A DNA stretch of 64,000 bases. It comes from an uncultured Monoglobus sp. (GTDB lineage: Bacteria; Bacillota; Clostridia; Monoglobales; Monoglobaceae). Below are positions 6,841-24,758 of this stretch, piece after piece (the stretch's first letter is position 1; the number at the start of each line of letters is the position of its first letter). The stretch spans positions 1-64,000 of the forward strand of contig CANRHV010000002.1 of assembly GCA_947630505.1 (NCBI GenBank). The letters are read 5' to 3'. Position numbers and translations under genes: made by a program. The notes beneath the pieces are model-generated. The model was not told the origin of the DNA. It was given only the letters and a program-made list of their open reading frames with translations, and ran no database searches.

Positions 6841-6980
6841 AAGCCTCCAAACGAAAGAATTTTTCAAAATAATTACATTCACCTTATATTTATATATCAA
6901 AATTGTAAATTTGTCAAGGGTTTTAAATAAATTTGTAAAAATACAGCGATTTTAACAAATTATTTGCCGACATAAATAAA

Positions 6981-7165
6981 CCCCGCGATTGCCGTAGAAT
7001 GACTAAAGTAAAAACCTGGAAACCAGGTGGGATTTTCTCGGAAACTTTACAAGTCCACTGGACGACCCCGAAGGGTGTGAGGCATGTGCGCCGCCCCCGA
7101 AGATTAAAATCCCTTAATAATTTTGTTGGTTTTACATTAATGTCATAATTACGCACAACGCAGGG
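6981..7165 (+). ncRNA. ssrS: Probable 6S RNA
   Basis: About 185-nt irregular hairpin with paired ends: cccgcg/cgcaggg, atgac/gtcat, gtaaaaacc/ggttttac, gggatttt/aaaatccc; apical GGGUGUGAGGCAUGUGCGCCG...GAAGAUUAAAA resembles the E. coli 6S apical/3' bubble sequence; intergenic. Confidence 0.6.
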
Positions 7166-7450
7166 AATTATTTTATGTTCATATTATATCATATAAAACA
7201 TGAAATTACAACACATATTTATGTTCTTTTTATAACAATTTTAATTGATTATTGTTACAAACGTTTCTGTTTTGTTACAAGTTTTTTCGGGCGGTTTACA
7301 GAGAATTAACAATTTCTTGTTTCCATATTTTTTGCATTGAAATTATATTTTATTTAGGTATAATTAAAATTGTGAGCGCATATTTTTGATTATAAATATA
7401 TTGATAAGCTTTTATATTGATACGGTTTTCGAAAAATCAGGAGAAAAAAT

Positions 7451-8233: not shown

Positions 8234-8317
8234 CGGATATAATTCATCCTAAAATGTTAAGATGTGCCCGCGATCGTTGGGTTTATTGATTCGCGAAATT
8301 TTAATATAGAAAGGGTA

Positions 8318-9589
8318 ATGAGTATGCTGTTTTCTTTGGATGATATAATGGAGTATATCGAGGATAACGACGTTAAGTTCATACGTTTGGTGTTTTTTGA
8401 CATATTCGGAAATATGAAGAATATCTCGATCTTCGCCTCCGAGCTGCCGAGGGCGCTGGAGTACGGAGTGACCTTTGACGCCTCGGAGATCAACGGATTC
8501 ATGAACGTGGGCGAGAGCGACCTTATGCTGCGTCCCGACCCGACGACCGCCGAGATACTGCCGTGGCGGCCGCAGCACGCCAGAGTTCTCAGAATATTCT
8601 GCGACATATGCTATCCCGACGGCAAGATGTTTGAGGGCGATTCCCGCAATATACTCAAAAAGTCGATCGACGATCTGGGGGAGAACGGACTGTACTGCGA
8701 GATAGGGACCGAGTGCAAGTTCTACCTGTTCAATCTTGACGAGCACGGCGAGATGACGGACATTCCCCACGACAACGGAACTTACTACGACGTGGCTCCG
8801 TCCGACAGGGGCGAGAATATCCGCCGCGAGATATGCCTGACGCTTGAGGAAATGGGCATACAGCCCAGAAGCTCAAAGCACGCGGGCGGTCCCGGCCAGC
8901 ACCAGATCGTGTACAACCACGGCGCGCCCGTTGAGGCGGCAGACCATGTGATGACATTTAAAAATTTGGTTCGTACCATAGCCGATATGAACGGACTGTA
9001 CGCCTCGTTTATGCCCCGCCCCATTCCCGACAAGAGTGGAAACGGAATGCACGTTCATCTGTCTTTGTATGAGAGCAAGACCGGAAAGAGCCTTATTGAC
9101 ATAGGCTGCGAGACGGGCCGCCGATTCATCGCGGGAATCATGGCGCATATAAATGAGATAAGCCTGTTTCTGTGCCCGACTGTGAACTCATACAGCAGGC
9201 TGGGTCAGTTCGAGGCGCCGAAGTTTGTGACATGGTCGCACCAGAACCGACAGCAGCTTATGCGTATCCCCACAAACACGGTGGGAGAGAGCCGTCTCGA
9301 GCTGCGCTCGCCCGACGGATGCTCCAATCCGTATCTGGTTATCGCGCTGATGATCTATGCGGGTATCGACGGCGTCAAAAACGAGATGAGGCTCGCCGAT
9401 CCCGTTAACGTTACCTATAAGGAAGGCATTGAGGGGCTCGTTCGCCTGCCGCGGAACCTTGAGGAGGCCGTGCGCTTTGCCGAAAACAGCGATTTTGTGA
9501 AACGGGTGCTGCCGCGCAACATAACGGCGACATATATCAACGAAAAGCGCCGCGAATACAAAGAATATCTCAAATCCGAGAAAAAATAA
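8318..9589 (+). CDS. glnA: Glutamine synthetase
   Basis: GS catalytic signatures (KHAGGPGQHQI, HVHLSL, RIPTNTVGESRLELRSPD); start at ATG 8318 after GAAAGGG RBS. Confidence 0.93.
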   Translation: MSMLFSLDDIMEYIEDNDVKFIRLVFFDIFGNMKNISIFASELPRALEYGVTFDASEINGFMNVGESDLMLRPDPTTAEILPWRPQHARVLRIFCDICYPDGKMFEGDSRNILKKSIDDLGENGLYCEIGTECKFYLFNLDEHGEMTDIPHDNGTYYDVAPSDRGENIRREICLTLEEMGIQPRSSKHAGGPGQHQIVYNHGAPVEAADHVMTFKNLVRTIADMNGLYASFMPRPIPDKSGNGMHVHLSLYESKTGKSLIDIGCETGRRFIAGIMAHINEISLFLCPTVNSYSRLGQFEAPKFVTWSHQNRQQLMRIPTNTVGESRLELRSPDGCSNPYLVIALMIYAGIDGVKNEMRLADPVNVTYKEGIEGLVRLPRNLEEAVRFAENSDFVKRVLPRNITATYINEKRREYKEYLKSEKK

Positions 9590-19533: not shown

Positions 19534-19562
19534 TTGACTTTTTTCTCATACAGTGGTATACT
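19534..19562 (+). promoter_or_regulatory. Promoter of glutamate synthase operon
   Basis: TTGACT-N17-TATACT. Confidence 0.85.
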
Positions 19563-19570
19563 GTATAAAC

Positions 19571-19620
19571 CGAACAAAGGCGTTCGTCTGCTCAATGAGC
19601 GGCGAACGCCTGTTTTTTTG
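19571..19620 (+). promoter_or_regulatory. Transcription attenuator, candidate ANTAR target
   Basis: CGAAC-AAAGGC-GTTCG hairpin mutually exclusive with terminator AGGCGTTCG...CGAACGCCTGTTTTTTT. Confidence 0.65.
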
Positions 19621-19684: not shown

Positions 19685-20827
19685 ATGTTGGAAGGAGAAA
19701 GAGCTATGCTACTCAGAGAAGGCGAAAACGGCAACAGGATTCCGGCGGGATGCGCTATATCCGGTATTTTCTCGAAAAGCGGAACGAGAATCAACGGCAA
19801 GCAAATCATCGATTCGATTTCCGTTATGCACGACCGCTCAAACGGTCTCGGCGGCGGATTCGCGGGTTACGGCATTTATCCCGAATACAAGAATCAGTAT
19901 GCCTTCCACGTTTTCTACGAAACAAACGAGGCGAAAGAAATCTGCGAAAGGTACCTCGACCGTCATTTTGACGTTATCAACCTTTCGAAAATACCCATCA
20001 GAAGGATCCCCGAGATCAAGGACGAGCCCCTGATCTGGAGGTATTTTGTCGATCCCCTGCGCACGCGGCTGGCGGCCTCGCAGCTTGACGAGAAGGAGTA
20101 CGTTGTGCGCTGCGTCAACAGGATCAACACCAAGCTTGACGGCTGCTATGTTTTCTCATGCGGAAAGAATATGGGCGTGTTCAAGGCGGTGGGATTCCCC
20201 GAGGACGTGGGCAGATTCTACAGATTAAACGAATACGACGGCTATTGTTGGACGGCGCACGGCCGCTATCCCACAAACACTCCCGGCTGGTGGGGCGGAG
20301 CGCATCCGTTCGCGATGCTTGATTACTCGATCGTGCACAACGGCGAGATCTCGTCCTACGACGCGAACCGCCGCTTTATCGAGATGTACGGCTACAAATG
20401 CAACCTTTTGACCGACACCGAGGTCATCACCTACATAACCGACTATCTGCTTCGCAAGCAGAAATTGAGCCTTGAGGAAATGGCGAGCGTCGTGGCCGCG
20501 CCCTTCTGGTCGACCATAGAACACATGGAGGAGCCGGAAAAAAGCAGACTCAAATTCCTGCGCAACAAGTTCAGCAGTCTGCTTATCACGGGTCCGTTCT
20601 CGATACTGCTCGGCTTCACCGGAGGCATGATGGCCTTAAACGACAGGCTCAAGCTGCGCAGCATGGTTGTGGGCGAGAAGGACGACATGGTCTATATCGC
20701 CAGCGAGGAGTGCGCCATGCGCGTGATAGAGCCCAACCTTGACACTATCTGGTCGCCCAGAGGCGGCGAGCCTGTGATCGTGCGGCTTTACGACGAGGCA
20801 ATGGAAGAGATCGGAGGTGACGAATAA
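19685..20827 (+). CDS. Glutamate synthase amidotransferase-domain subunit (archaeal-type, split)
   Basis: Class II glutamine amidotransferase features: C-AISGIFSK, AHGRYPTNTPGWWGGAHPF, LTDTEVI. Confidence 0.85.
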   Translation: MLEGERAMLLREGENGNRIPAGCAISGIFSKSGTRINGKQIIDSISVMHDRSNGLGGGFAGYGIYPEYKNQYAFHVFYETNEAKEICERYLDRHFDVINLSKIPIRRIPEIKDEPLIWRYFVDPLRTRLAASQLDEKEYVVRCVNRINTKLDGCYVFSCGKNMGVFKAVGFPEDVGRFYRLNEYDGYCWTAHGRYPTNTPGWWGGAHPFAMLDYSIVHNGEISSYDANRRFIEMYGYKCNLLTDTEVITYITDYLLRKQKLSLEEMASVVAAPFWSTIEHMEEPEKSRLKFLRNKFSSLLITGPFSILLGFTGGMMALNDRLKLRSMVVGEKDDMVYIASEECAMRVIEPNLDTIWSPRGGEPVIVRLYDEAMEEIGGDE

Positions 20828-22332
20828 TGCTGCGTGACTACTTATATCCCGAATACGAGGCGGTGCGCAATTCCGAGCTGTGTATCGGCTGCCGCGCCTG
20901 TGAGCGCCAGTGCTCAAACGAGGTTCATCGCTACGACAGCGACCTGGGCAAGATGGTGAGTGACAGCACAAATTGCGTTGATTGTCAGAGGTGCGTTTGC
21001 CTCTGCCCGACCCACGCCCTTAAAATTGTAAAGAGCGACCATACATTCAAGCTCAACGCCAACTGGACACAGGAGGCTATAACCGACGTTATTCGTCAGG
21101 CGGGCACCGGAGCGGTGCTGCTTTCCGCCATGGGCAACCCAAAGGAATACCCGGTCTATTGGGACAAGATGCTCATCAACGCGTCTCAGGTGACAAATCC
21201 GTCGATCGACCCGCTGCGCGAGCCTATGGAGACAAAAACGTACCTCGGCAAAAAGTCTGAGGAGATACAAAGGGACAGAAACGGAAACATTATTCCCGAG
21301 ACATCGCCGCAGATCGAACTGGAGACGCCGATCATGTTTTCGGCCATGTCCTACGGCTCGATAAGCTACAACGCTCACAAGAGCCTCGCGACGGCGGCCG
21401 AGGAGCTGGGCATCTTATACAACACAGGCGAGGGCGGACTGCACGAAGACTTTTACCAGTACGGCCCCAACACGATCGTTCAGGTCGCGTCGGGAAGATT
21501 CGGCGTGCACGAGGACTATTTAAACGCTGGCGCCGCCATAGAGATCAAAATGGGTCAGGGCGCCAAGCCCGGCATTGGCGGACACCTGCCGGGTGAGAAA
21601 ATAGTTGACGACATTTCAAAGACAAGAATGATCCCCGAGGGAACCGACGCGATATCGCCGGCGCCCCATCACGACATATACTCGATTGAGGACCTGCGAC
21701 AGTTGGTGTTCTCGCTGAAAGAGGCCAGCGACTACAAAAAGCCGGTCATCGTCAAGATCGCGGCCGTGCATAACGTGGCGGCGATCGCAAGCGGCATAGC
21801 CAGAAGCGGCGCGGATATAATCGCAATCGACGGTTATCGCGGCGGCACGGGCGCGGCTCCCAAAAGAATACGCGACAACGTGGGTATTCCCATTGAACTG
21901 GCGCTCGCAAGCGTAGATCAGCGTCTCCGCGACGAGGGCATCCGCGACGAGGTGTCCGTTGTCGTCGGCGGAAGCATCAGAAGCAGCGCCGACGTGGTAA
22001 AGGCGATAGCGCTTGGCGCCGACGCGGTCTATATCGCGACATCGGCTCTTATCGCACTGGGCTGCCATCTCTGCCGCAGCTGTCAGGCGGGCAAGTGCAA
22101 CTGGGGCATTGCCACCCAGGTGCCCGAGCTGGTAAAGCGCCTCAACCCGGCGGACGGCAAGGAAAGGCTTGTGAATCTGGTTCATGCCTGGACCCATGAG
22201 ATCAAAGAAATGATGGGCGGTATGGGCATCAACTCGATCGAGGCTCTGCGCGGAAACAGGCTTATGCTCAGAGGTATCGGGCTCACAAGCAAAGAGCTTG
22301 AGATCCTGGGCATCAAACACGCGGGCGAATAA
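20827..22332 (+). CDS. Glutamate synthase FMN/synthase-domain subunit with N-terminal ferredoxin domain
   Basis: CIGCRACERQC / CVDCQRCVCLCP clusters; SAMSYGSISYNAHKSLATAAEELG, GQGAKPGIGGHLPG, GYRGGTGAAP. Confidence 0.93.
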   Translation: MLRDYLYPEYEAVRNSELCIGCRACERQCSNEVHRYDSDLGKMVSDSTNCVDCQRCVCLCPTHALKIVKSDHTFKLNANWTQEAITDVIRQAGTGAVLLSAMGNPKEYPVYWDKMLINASQVTNPSIDPLREPMETKTYLGKKSEEIQRDRNGNIIPETSPQIELETPIMFSAMSYGSISYNAHKSLATAAEELGILYNTGEGGLHEDFYQYGPNTIVQVASGRFGVHEDYLNAGAAIEIKMGQGAKPGIGGHLPGEKIVDDISKTRMIPEGTDAISPAPHHDIYSIEDLRQLVFSLKEASDYKKPVIVKIAAVHNVAAIASGIARSGADIIAIDGYRGGTGAAPKRIRDNVGIPIELALASVDQRLRDEGIRDEVSVVVGGSIRSSADVVKAIALGADAVYIATSALIALGCHLCRSCQAGKCNWGIATQVPELVKRLNPADGKERLVNLVHAWTHEIKEMMGGMGINSIEALRGNRLMLRGIGLTSKELEILGIKHAGE

Positions 22333-22347
22333 GGAGGGAATGCCGTA

Positions 22348-22785
22348 ATGAAAAGAATTTATGTTAATGAGGAATGGTGCCTCGGCTGCCATTTGTGCGA
22401 ATACCAATGCGCCTTCGCAAATTCGGGTATGGACGATATGGTCAAGGCCCTAAAGGGCAAGACCATCCATCCGAGGATACAAGTCGAGGGCGACAACAAG
22501 ATAAGCTTCGCGGTCAACTGCCGCCATTGTTCCGACGCCCGCTGCGTCAAAGGCTGCATTTCCGGTGCGCTGTCCCGCGATAAGGACGGAGTCGTGGTAA
22601 TAGACACCGACAAGTGCGTGGGCTGCTTCACCTGCATACTGTCCTGCCCCTACGGCGTGATAATGCCGTCGAGCGACCATTCGGTAGTGCAGAAGTGCCA
22701 GCTTTGCATGGACAACGCGTCGGGAGAACCCGCCTGCGTCAAGGGCTGCCCCAACAGAGCGATAGTATATGAGGAAAGGATTTAG
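22348..22785 (+). CDS. 4Fe-4S dicluster ferredoxin-type subunit
   Basis: CLGCHLCEYQC, CRHCSDARCVKGC, CVGCFTCILSCPYG motifs. Confidence 0.9.
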   Translation: MKRIYVNEEWCLGCHLCEYQCAFANSGMDDMVKALKGKTIHPRIQVEGDNKISFAVNCRHCSDARCVKGCISGALSRDKDGVVVIDTDKCVGCFTCILSCPYGVIMPSSDHSVVQKCQLCMDNASGEPACVKGCPNRAIVYEERI

Positions 22786-22794
22786 GGTGATATT

Positions 22795-24033
22795 ATGAAA
22801 TATGATTACTTGATAATCGGTAACTCTATCGCCGCTGTCGGCTGCATCGAGGGCATAAGGGAGAACGACACCGAGGGCAGTATCTGCGTTGTTACCGATG
22901 AGAATTACAGAGTTTACGGACGGCCGCTGATCTCGTATTATCTGTGGAACAAGACCACCGAGAAAAAGATGCTGAGCTACAGACCGGATAATTTTTATAA
23001 GAAAAATGACGTCGAGCTTATGCTCGGCACAAGGGCCGAGAAGATAAACCCCGAAAAGAAAACGGTCAGCCTCAGCGGAGGCCGCGAGATCGGCTACGGC
23101 AAGCTGCTGATCGCCGCGGGCTCATCGCCGTTTGTGCCGCCCATGAAGGGCCTCGACGGAGTGGAAAAGAAATTCAGCTTTATGACGCTGGACGACGCCA
23201 AGGTTCTGGCGGAAGCGATAGGCAAAGACAGCCGAGTGCTGATAGTCGGCGCGGGTCTTATCGGCCTCAAGTGCGCCGAGGGAATAAGCGACCGCGCGGG
23301 CAGCCTGACCGTTGTAGATCTGGCGAACAGGATACTCCCGAGCATTCTGGACGAAAAGGGCTCCGCCATAGTCCAAAAACACATCGAGCGCCGCGGCGTT
23401 AAGTTTTACTTAAACGACAGCGTGGCCGAGTTTAAAGACGGAACGGCGACCCTTTCAAGCGGCAAAAAGATAGAGTATGACGCGGTGGTTATCGCAGTGG
23501 GCGTGCGGCCCAATACCGCTCTCGCGGCCGACGCGGGCGGCGAGGTGAACCGCGGAATCGCCACCGACCTGAAGTGCGTGACCACGATCCCCGATGTGTA
23601 CGCCGCGGGCGACTGCGCCGAATGCTTAAACAGCATAACGGGCAAGAGCCAAGTCCTGGCGCTGCTGCCGAACGCCTACATGATGGGGCACGCGGCGGGC
23701 GTCAACATGAGCGGCGGCGAGGAATTATACGACGACGCCATTCCGATGAACGCCATCGGATTCTGGGGCCTGCATATCATAACCGCGGGCGACTACGAGG
23801 GCGAGGCGTATGTGAAGCGCGAGGGGACCAAGTACAAAAAGCTGGTTACCGCGAACAACAATCTGCGCGGATTCATACTGATCGACGATATCGAAAGAGC
23901 GGGAATCTACACCCGTCTGGTTCGCGAAAAGACGCCGCTTGACGAGATAGATTTCGAGGCGATAAAAGAAAGACCGCAGGAGATGGCGTTCTCAAGAGCG
24001 GTCAGAAAAGACGACTTAGGAGGTGTCAAGTAA
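22795..24033 (+). CDS. NAD(P)/FAD-dependent oxidoreductase (pyridine nucleotide-disulfide type)
   Basis: YLIIGNSIAAVG, VLIVGAGLIGLKCAEG, DVYAAGDCAE. Confidence 0.9.
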   Translation: MKYDYLIIGNSIAAVGCIEGIRENDTEGSICVVTDENYRVYGRPLISYYLWNKTTEKKMLSYRPDNFYKKNDVELMLGTRAEKINPEKKTVSLSGGREIGYGKLLIAAGSSPFVPPMKGLDGVEKKFSFMTLDDAKVLAEAIGKDSRVLIVGAGLIGLKCAEGISDRAGSLTVVDLANRILPSILDEKGSAIVQKHIERRGVKFYLNDSVAEFKDGTATLSSGKKIEYDAVVIAVGVRPNTALAADAGGEVNRGIATDLKCVTTIPDVYAAGDCAECLNSITGKSQVLALLPNAYMMGHAAGVNMSGGEELYDDAIPMNAIGFWGLHIITAGDYEGEAYVKREGTKYKKLVTANNNLRGFILIDDIERAGIYTRLVREKTPLDEIDFEAIKERPQEMAFSRAVRKDDLGGVK

Positions 24034-24758
24034 TGAAAATCAACGCGGGACTCACATACTACGATGAGATAAACAAAAAGATCCGCGCCACACGCGACAA
24101 AAAAGTCGAGGTGGACAACTGCCTGGGTCAGAGATATATCGGCTGCGGAATTTCCGGCAAGGAGCTTGTGGTAAACGGCACGCCCGGTAACGCGCTTGGG
24201 GCCTACTTAAACGGCGGTACCGTGACAGTCTACGGAAACGCGCAGGACGCCACCGGCGACACCATGAACGACGGCGTGATCTCGATACACGGCTCGTCGG
24301 GCGACGCCACGGGCTACGCCATGCGCGGCGGCAAGATCTTCGTGCAGGGCGACGCGGGCTACCGCGCGGGCATCCACATGAAGGCGTACAAGGACAAGGT
24401 CCCGGTGCTGGTGATCGGCGGCAAGGCCGGAAGCTTTCTCGGCGAGTACCAGGCCGGCGGATATATAATCGTGCTGGGTCTGGGACACGACGACAGAAAG
24501 ACAGTCGTCGAAAGGTTCTGCGCCACGGGAATGCACGGCGGCAAGATATTCCTGCGCTGCGAGGAACTGCCGTTTGACATTCCGCCCCAGGTCAACGCGC
24601 GCAAGGCCGAAAAAGCCGACCTTGACGAGATAGAGGGCTACATCGACGAGTATATAGAAATGTTCGGCGGCGACAAGGCGATAATCATGAAGAAAAACTT
24701 TTTCGTCCTGACCCCCGACAGCAAGAACCAGTATAAGCAGATATATACGGCATGCTAA
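24033..24758 (+). CDS. Glutamate synthase GXGXG-domain subunit
   Basis: Beta-helix repeats GNALGAYLNGGTVTVYGNAQDATGDTMNDG. Confidence 0.88.
   Translation: MKINAGLTYYDEINKKIRATRDKKVEVDNCLGQRYIGCGISGKELVVNGTPGNALGAYLNGGTVTVYGNAQDATGDTMNDGVISIHGSSGDATGYAMRGGKIFVQGDAGYRAGIHMKAYKDKVPVLVIGGKAGSFLGEYQAGGYIIVLGLGHDDRKTVVERFCATGMHGGKIFLRCEELPFDIPPQVNARKAEKADLDEIEGYIDEYIEMFGGDKAIIMKKNFFVLTPDSKNQYKQIYTAC

Follow-up and report, generated by a model that had tools for sequence, protein, structure and literature searches.

What decides whether RNA polymerase passes from the promoter into the glutamate synthase operon of an uncultured Monoglobus sp. (Bacillota, Clostridia), and can ANTAR-type antitermination act there through a single RNA hairpin? 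The question is raised by a leader at positions 19534-19619 of the stretch of DNA analysed here (the window: 64,000 nucleotides (nt), positions 1 to 64,000 of the forward strand of contig CANRHV010000002.1, assembly GCA_947630505.1), which an initial annotation had read as an ANTAR-controlled attenuator with an imperfect dual-hairpin motif. We consider it very likely, judging from the sequence and its relatives, that the leader is a single-hairpin ANTAR antitermination element of the glutamate synthase operon. The ANTAR-type reading gained from conservation of the loop, covariation in the stem, and the co-occurrence and linkage of the element with ANTAR genes, while the dual motif fell away.

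Architecture of the leader

A sigma-70 type promoter on the plus strand (19534-19562) consists of a -35 box TTGACT (19534-19539), a 17-nt spacer, and a -10 box TATACT (19557-19562), and transcription is predicted to start at about 19567-19569. The putative antiterminator hairpin (plus strand, 19571-19586) begins about 8 nt 3' of the -10 box and comprises the arm CGAAC (19571-19575), the loop AAAGGC (19576-19581), and the arm GTTCG (19582-19586), giving a stem of 5 base pairs (bp) and a hexaloop with A at position 1 (A1, 19576) and G at position 4 (G4, 19579). This A1/G4 combination is the signature known for ANTAR hexaloops (PMC3369931). The predicted intrinsic terminator (plus strand, 19578-19619) is built from the arms AGGCGTTCG (19578-19586) and CGAACGCCT (19603-19611), an inner stem (19588-19602), and a tract of seven T residues (19613-19619). 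Positions 19578-19586 are common to both structures, supplying loop bases 3-6 and the 3' arm of the hairpin. The promoter and the A1/G4 hairpin, as the initial annotation described them, are read directly in the sequence, and its proposal that the two structures exclude one another through the GTTCG arm is borne out by folding, in which the hairpin reaches -5.0 kcal/mol and the terminator -24.9 kcal/mol. The leader strand as a whole folds at -42.8 kcal/mol, compared with -25.4 +/- 3.2 kcal/mol in shuffles (z -5.4), and when the folded transcript is lengthened stepwise, the small hairpin forms first and the terminator takes over once its 3' arm emerges.

The bare hairpin consensus was rejected as evidence, its frequency in the window being no higher than chance (C-N3-C-A-N2-G-N2-G-N3-G, 31 seen and 34 expected), and homologous leaders were therefore used as the test. 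Three things lift the hairpin above chance: it is positioned on the promoter, it overlaps the terminator, and relatives conserve it with compensatory changes. Searched with the Rfam 15 covariance models at gathering score, the window gives a 6S RNA only and leaves the leader unmatched apart from weak sub-threshold hits, and ten related loci gave no matches.

Conservation and covariation in homologous leaders

We searched for the amidotransferase subunit of glutamate synthase in 38 genomes of the family and 292 of the class, and took leaders by gene position rather than by motif. Among 77 gltB-type leaders picked in this way by protein homology, 56 carry a promoter followed by the core C-R-W-N-G-R-Y-G, and the promoter itself, its spacing to the hairpin, and the terminator overlapping the hairpin all recur in related leaders. 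No stem was required of the 42 distinct cores, and the inner four pairs are nonetheless formed in every one of them. A stands at loop position 1 in 40 cores and G in the other two; A is constant at position 2, position 3 may be A, T, G, or C, and G4 is kept. G4 and the closing C and G were, however, set in advance by the search core, which also restricted positions 1, 2, 5, and 6, so that invariance in those columns is not independent evidence. With that proviso, the A1/G4 conservation looked for in homologous leaders is present (A1 in 40/42).

Pairing in the 42 cores reaches 93.3% of cells (86.0 +/- 1.0 when shuffled), with 21 double-sided changes (5.2 +/- 2.0) and a covariation of 0.395 (0.252 +/- 0.019); in each case 0 of 500 shuffles scored as high, though such a test can be inflated by relatedness. 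Sliding the partner by 1-3 columns, a control that retains relatedness but favours the structure derived from the same sequences, lowers pairing to 31-47%. G-U wobbles are frequent, occurring in 13 of 42 cores at one pair, which fits an RNA and not a DNA operator.

Several variants were seen among these loci. Three leaders from one genus of the same family (g9; L019, L020, and L022) have the loop GAAGAT, in which position 1 is G instead of A and G4 is kept. In L244 (G217:C26), on the opposite strand, a tandem pair of hairpin-terminator units lies within one leader, and in L247/L299 divergent, back-to-back elements share the region upstream of gltB.

One hairpin rather than two

The initial annotation had allowed for an imperfect second hairpin, which the leaders do not bear out. 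With the transcription start set 7 nt after the -10 box, 43 of 49 distinct leaders have only 0-4 nt ahead of the stem; room for another 5' hexaloop exists in four, and a candidate in just one of those. Downstream, under loose criteria, weak A1/G4 hexaloops occur in 20 of the 49 leaders (10 expected from mononucleotide shuffles), but we rejected these as a second hairpin because they lie at unrelated positions and are weak or rich in G-U pairs; no leader of the 49 has a downstream A1/G4 hexaloop with four consecutive Watson-Crick pairs. As the two tandem hairpins (P1 and P2) of the dual motif are not found, we would class the element as a single-hairpin variant. On these comparisons it appears to be a genuine one-hairpin form of the known dual-hairpin ANTAR leader, with transcription predicted to start at the stem base, which would put the hairpin at the 5' extremity of the RNA.

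The resemblance to the dual-hairpin ANTAR RNAs of eut, nas, ami, and nitrogen leaders (PMC3369931) extends to the A1/G4 hexaloop on a constrained stem of at least 3 bp, a 3' arm that also serves an intrinsic terminator, and a place upstream of nitrogen genes. Unlike those RNAs, the present element has one hairpin at the extreme 5' end, a far more constrained core (A-A-N-G-R-Y with a C-G closing pair), and a regulon that includes glutamine-using enzymes. Ramesh et al. 2012 (PMC3369931) reported dual-hairpin matches upstream of ammonium transporters and of glutamate and glutamine synthase genes, so ANTAR control of such genes is not in itself new. The literature searched, which covered few subscription papers, gave no description of the Clostridia single-hairpin set.

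The ANTAR protein and its link to the element

As the initial annotation stated, an ANTAR protein gene (9644-10213, plus strand) lies directly 3' of glnA, which encodes glutamine synthetase (8264-9589, plus strand; PF00120/PF03951). The ANTAR domain is recognized by PF03861 at 48.6 bits (cut-off 27.3), and a whole-genome search returned this one match, making it the sole ANTAR gene detected in the genome. Its product aligns in the ANTAR domain with EutV, AmiR, NasR, and Rv1626, and has a receiver-like N-terminal domain that scores 24.2 bits for Response_reg, under the 30.2 cut-off. Aligned to Rv1626, AmiR, and EutV, the phospho-acceptor Asp is replaced by Asn54, so that the protein lacks the acceptor that marks a two-component response regulator. 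The same position across 41 aligned ANTAR proteins is N in 20, D in 13, G in 6, H in 1, and E in 1. This replacement suggests that the protein answers to a signal other than receiver phosphorylation, and our guess is that a partner, for instance glutamine synthetase, controls it.

K148 and E159, which align with EutV Lys149 and Glu160, are invariant in all 41 proteins. In EutV these two residues bind G4, and the Enterococcus faecalis crystal structure confines contact between protein and RNA to one hexaloop (PMC8934654). EutV differs from the window protein in being phosphorylated on Asp54 and in its reported need for both hairpins, as against an Asn and a one-hairpin leader. With the Pseudomonas ANTAR antiterminator AmiR (1qo0), the window protein shares a His at the position of EutV Tyr164.

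The association between element and protein is also apparent across genomes. A scan for terminator-overlapping hexaloops near 40 ANTAR genes in 40 genomes, which took any loop sequence and fixed neither A1 nor G4, found 18 of the A1/G4 class and 4 over two shuffled sets (about 2 per set), and 57 of all other classes pooled against about 30 per shuffled set. Among terminator-overlapping hexaloops near these genes, A1/G4 is the class with clear enrichment, which upholds the loop identity independently of the core search. A promoter with ACAAAGGCGT occurs in 48 of 292 genomes, and an ANTAR gene was detected in 44 of these 48 compared with 102 of the remaining 244 (Fisher p ~6e-11, a value that ignores phylogeny among related genomes). 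Within named records, 81 element sites fall in 80 loci; 29 precede glnA, with ANTAR directly after glnA in 11 of these, and in four more loci ANTAR lies farther downstream of the element, making 15 within the 8 kb loci.

The records carrying the element include Blautia, Roseburia, Eubacterium, Herbinix, and Monoglobus, among others. It is present as well in three metagenome-assembled genome (MAG) records labelled Treponema (L110, L142, and L206), before glnA-ANTAR in L110 and before carA in L142, reflecting either transfer or a binning error. Further A-N-N-G hairpins overlapping terminators, with stems GCAGC/GCTGT, ACAGC/GCTGT, and GACAC/GTGTC, lie on the strand opposite ANTAR in L228, L231, L234, L237, L239, and L241.

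Genes behind the element

The element directly precedes, among others, genes for gltB-type subunits, glnA, glmS, pyrG, carA, asnA, asnB, purA, purC, and dapF, as well as those for NMT1-like binding proteins, circularly permuted ATP-grasp proteins, ammonium transporters (amt), and an alanine symporter. Names come from Pfam in the scanned loci for pyrG, carA, asnA, the symporter, and the NMT1-like and ATP-grasp proteins, from BLAST to the window's own proteins for gltB and glnA, and from BLAST to loci whose identity was read from sequence for glmS, purA, purC, dapF, asnB, and amt. Many of these genes use or make glutamine or ammonia, and we infer for the element, across the Clostridia, control of a glutamine/ammonium regulon, together with the direction of that control and its signal. 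Such a nitrogen regulon is proposed where, in the literature searched, the glnA-adjacent ANTAR gene has no assigned targets.

Proposed mechanism and alternative explanations

In the mechanism that we propose, RNA polymerase would start at the hairpin base, so that the hairpin with its A-N-N-G hexaloop would be the first RNA structure to form. Unaided, this weak hairpin (about -5 kcal/mol) would be displaced by the terminator (about -25 kcal/mol), and transcription would stop at about 19612-19619. An active glnA-linked ANTAR protein would instead clamp the hexaloop through G4 and keep the hairpin in place until the polymerase clears the U-tract, whereupon the glutamate synthase operon would be transcribed. 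The glnA-linked protein is thus the presumed binder, its binding presumably activates rather than represses, and nitrogen status is the probable signal. Beyond this locus, we lean towards a broader proposal: that a single 5' hexaloop suffices for ANTAR antitermination, and that the one-hairpin design, driven by glnA-linked ANTAR proteins mostly without the phospho-acceptor Asp, may form a class-wide Clostridia glutamine/ammonium switch that acts on glnA, gltB, and amt, on enzymes that use glutamine, and on a structured small RNA in Monoglobus.

Several observations weigh against this interpretation. A promoter and core match is absent from 21 of the 77 gltB-type leaders, some of which have the hairpin farther from the promoter or a weaker promoter. 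The window's own glnA-ANTAR operon has no match to the model derived from the cores, so that feedback of the protein on its own gene is not seen in this genome. EutV Tyr164, which stacks on G4, is His in the window protein (His in 22 and Tyr in 11 of the 41 aligned proteins), and EutV Arg142 is Leu. Walshe et al. 2022 redefined the binding site as one hexaloop and yet concluded that antitermination in the eut leader needs both, calling for more work on the role of single hexaloops (PMC8934654). A natural set of one-hairpin leaders would be a place to test that role, and it has a bearing on why EutV is reported to need both hairpins though the protein can contact only one at a time (PMC8934654). 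Finally, a convincing element occurs without a detected ANTAR gene in two assemblies (G079 and G268), with two others (G049 and G299) less clear. All four are fragmented, with completeness of 83-97%, and in G079 the element sits on a 1.6-kb contig. Inspection of the motif genomes with no detected ANTAR gene left out the G077 locus, and a profile search yielded nothing beyond weak receiver-like matches in G299 and G315. The G115 motif looks like a chance match, with no terminator in the locus shown, and model matches in G079 and G106 (on C23/C467) were discarded as lying within coding sequence.

Those ANTAR-less assemblies would be expected if an ANTAR-type hairpin were read by another RNA-binding protein or a mix of regulators, an explanation to which we assign a slim chance given that every exception is a fragmented assembly, that A1/G4 hexaloops are known as the signature of ANTAR targets (PMC3369931), and that many genomes link the element to an ANTAR gene. 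We regard it as similarly unlikely that the leader is a constitutive attenuator or plain terminator passing a fixed fraction of transcripts without a protein, with the hairpin incidental. A strong terminator alone (-24.9 kcal/mol) would account for the conserved GGCGTTC...GAACGCC, but the hairpin's 5' arm lies outside the terminator and nevertheless pairs in each of the 42 cores, covarying with the 3' arm; loop A1-A2 is conserved though outside the terminator arm, and linkage to and co-occurrence with ANTAR would go unexplained.

Position and symmetry could also point to a DNA operator, in which GAAC-N6-GTTC 3' of the -10 box would be a palindromic repressor site and the terminator overlap secondary, since operators typically lie at +1 to about +18 and the arms are palindromic in many members. 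The arms, however, change by compensation (GAAC/GTTC, GGAC/GTCC, AGAC/GTCT, and GAAAC/GTTTC), G-U wobbles such as GAGC/GTTC are frequent and not palindromic in DNA, and the conserved part is an asymmetric loop with the terminator overlap also kept, all of which makes an operator very unlikely. We give hardly any credence to a role of the terminated transcript of about 50 nt mainly as an ANTAR-titrating small RNA in the manner of EutX/Rli55, with gltB control secondary. A second Monoglobus element with no coding gene behind it and the precedent of the EutX decoy (PMC8934654) speak for titration; most elements, though, directly precede nitrogen or glutamine genes, and this orphan has a structured RNA of its own behind it and so looks like another controlled transcript.

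A second element in Monoglobus

The model built from the cores, whose E-values are rough, gave two credible sites when run on the organism's own genome: the gltB leader at 27.8 bits, a member of its training set, and G000:C4:21493-21518 on the minus strand at 21.4 bits. Matches inspected from an exact 12-mer search of the same genome were set aside, apart from gltB, as resembling coding sequence or a plain terminator. The second element, kept in 10 of 12 Monoglobus genomes (L356; copies L347-L355), comprises a promoter, a GAGC-AAAGGC-GCTC hairpin, and a terminator, with no coding gene evident behind it on the same strand. On its 3' side, about 120 nt are conserved; the ends of this stretch pair and have changed on both sides, and it carries an invariant ACACTTTCTCCTTTACAAAACAATTACCAAACA segment and a terminator. 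Within this RNA (G000:C4:21.2-21.53 kb, minus strand, outside the window), the segment CTTTCTCCTTT is invariant and looks unpaired. Rfam has no family for the stretch, which we read as a putative structured RNA under the same switch as the gltB leader. Like EutX/Rli55, the orphan would be a non-coding transcript with an ANTAR hexaloop; unlike those ANTAR-sequestering small RNAs, it precedes a separate structured RNA. Perfect messenger RNA targets for the complement of its conserved TAAAGGAGAAAGTGT were confined to its own locus, and near-matches to that complement were fewer than in the reversed control.

The glutamate synthase operon and neighbouring features

The operon behind the leader encodes a split, archaeal-type glutamate synthase, all on the plus strand. 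The amidotransferase-type subunit (class-II glutamine amidotransferase; PF00310/PF13522) occupies 19706-20827; the open reading frame (ORF) list places its start at 19685, but the ribosome-binding site ggaaggagaaag and homologue starts favour the ATG at 19706. It is followed by a subunit with the glutamate synthase FMN domain and an N-terminal ferredoxin domain (20827-22332; PF01645), and then by three subunits found by domain search: a 4Fe-4S ferredoxin-like subunit (22348-22785), a pyridine nucleotide-disulphide oxidoreductase subunit (22795-24033), and a GXGXG-domain glutamate synthase subunit (24033-24758; PF01493). Between the ANTAR gene and this operon, a block of ORFs at 10483-18527 includes a protein that matches phage capsids (11177-12409; PF13252/PF25209) and is possibly a prophage remnant. 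The 6S RNA lies upstream of the glnA region, on the minus strand at 6976-7169 (82.1 bits).
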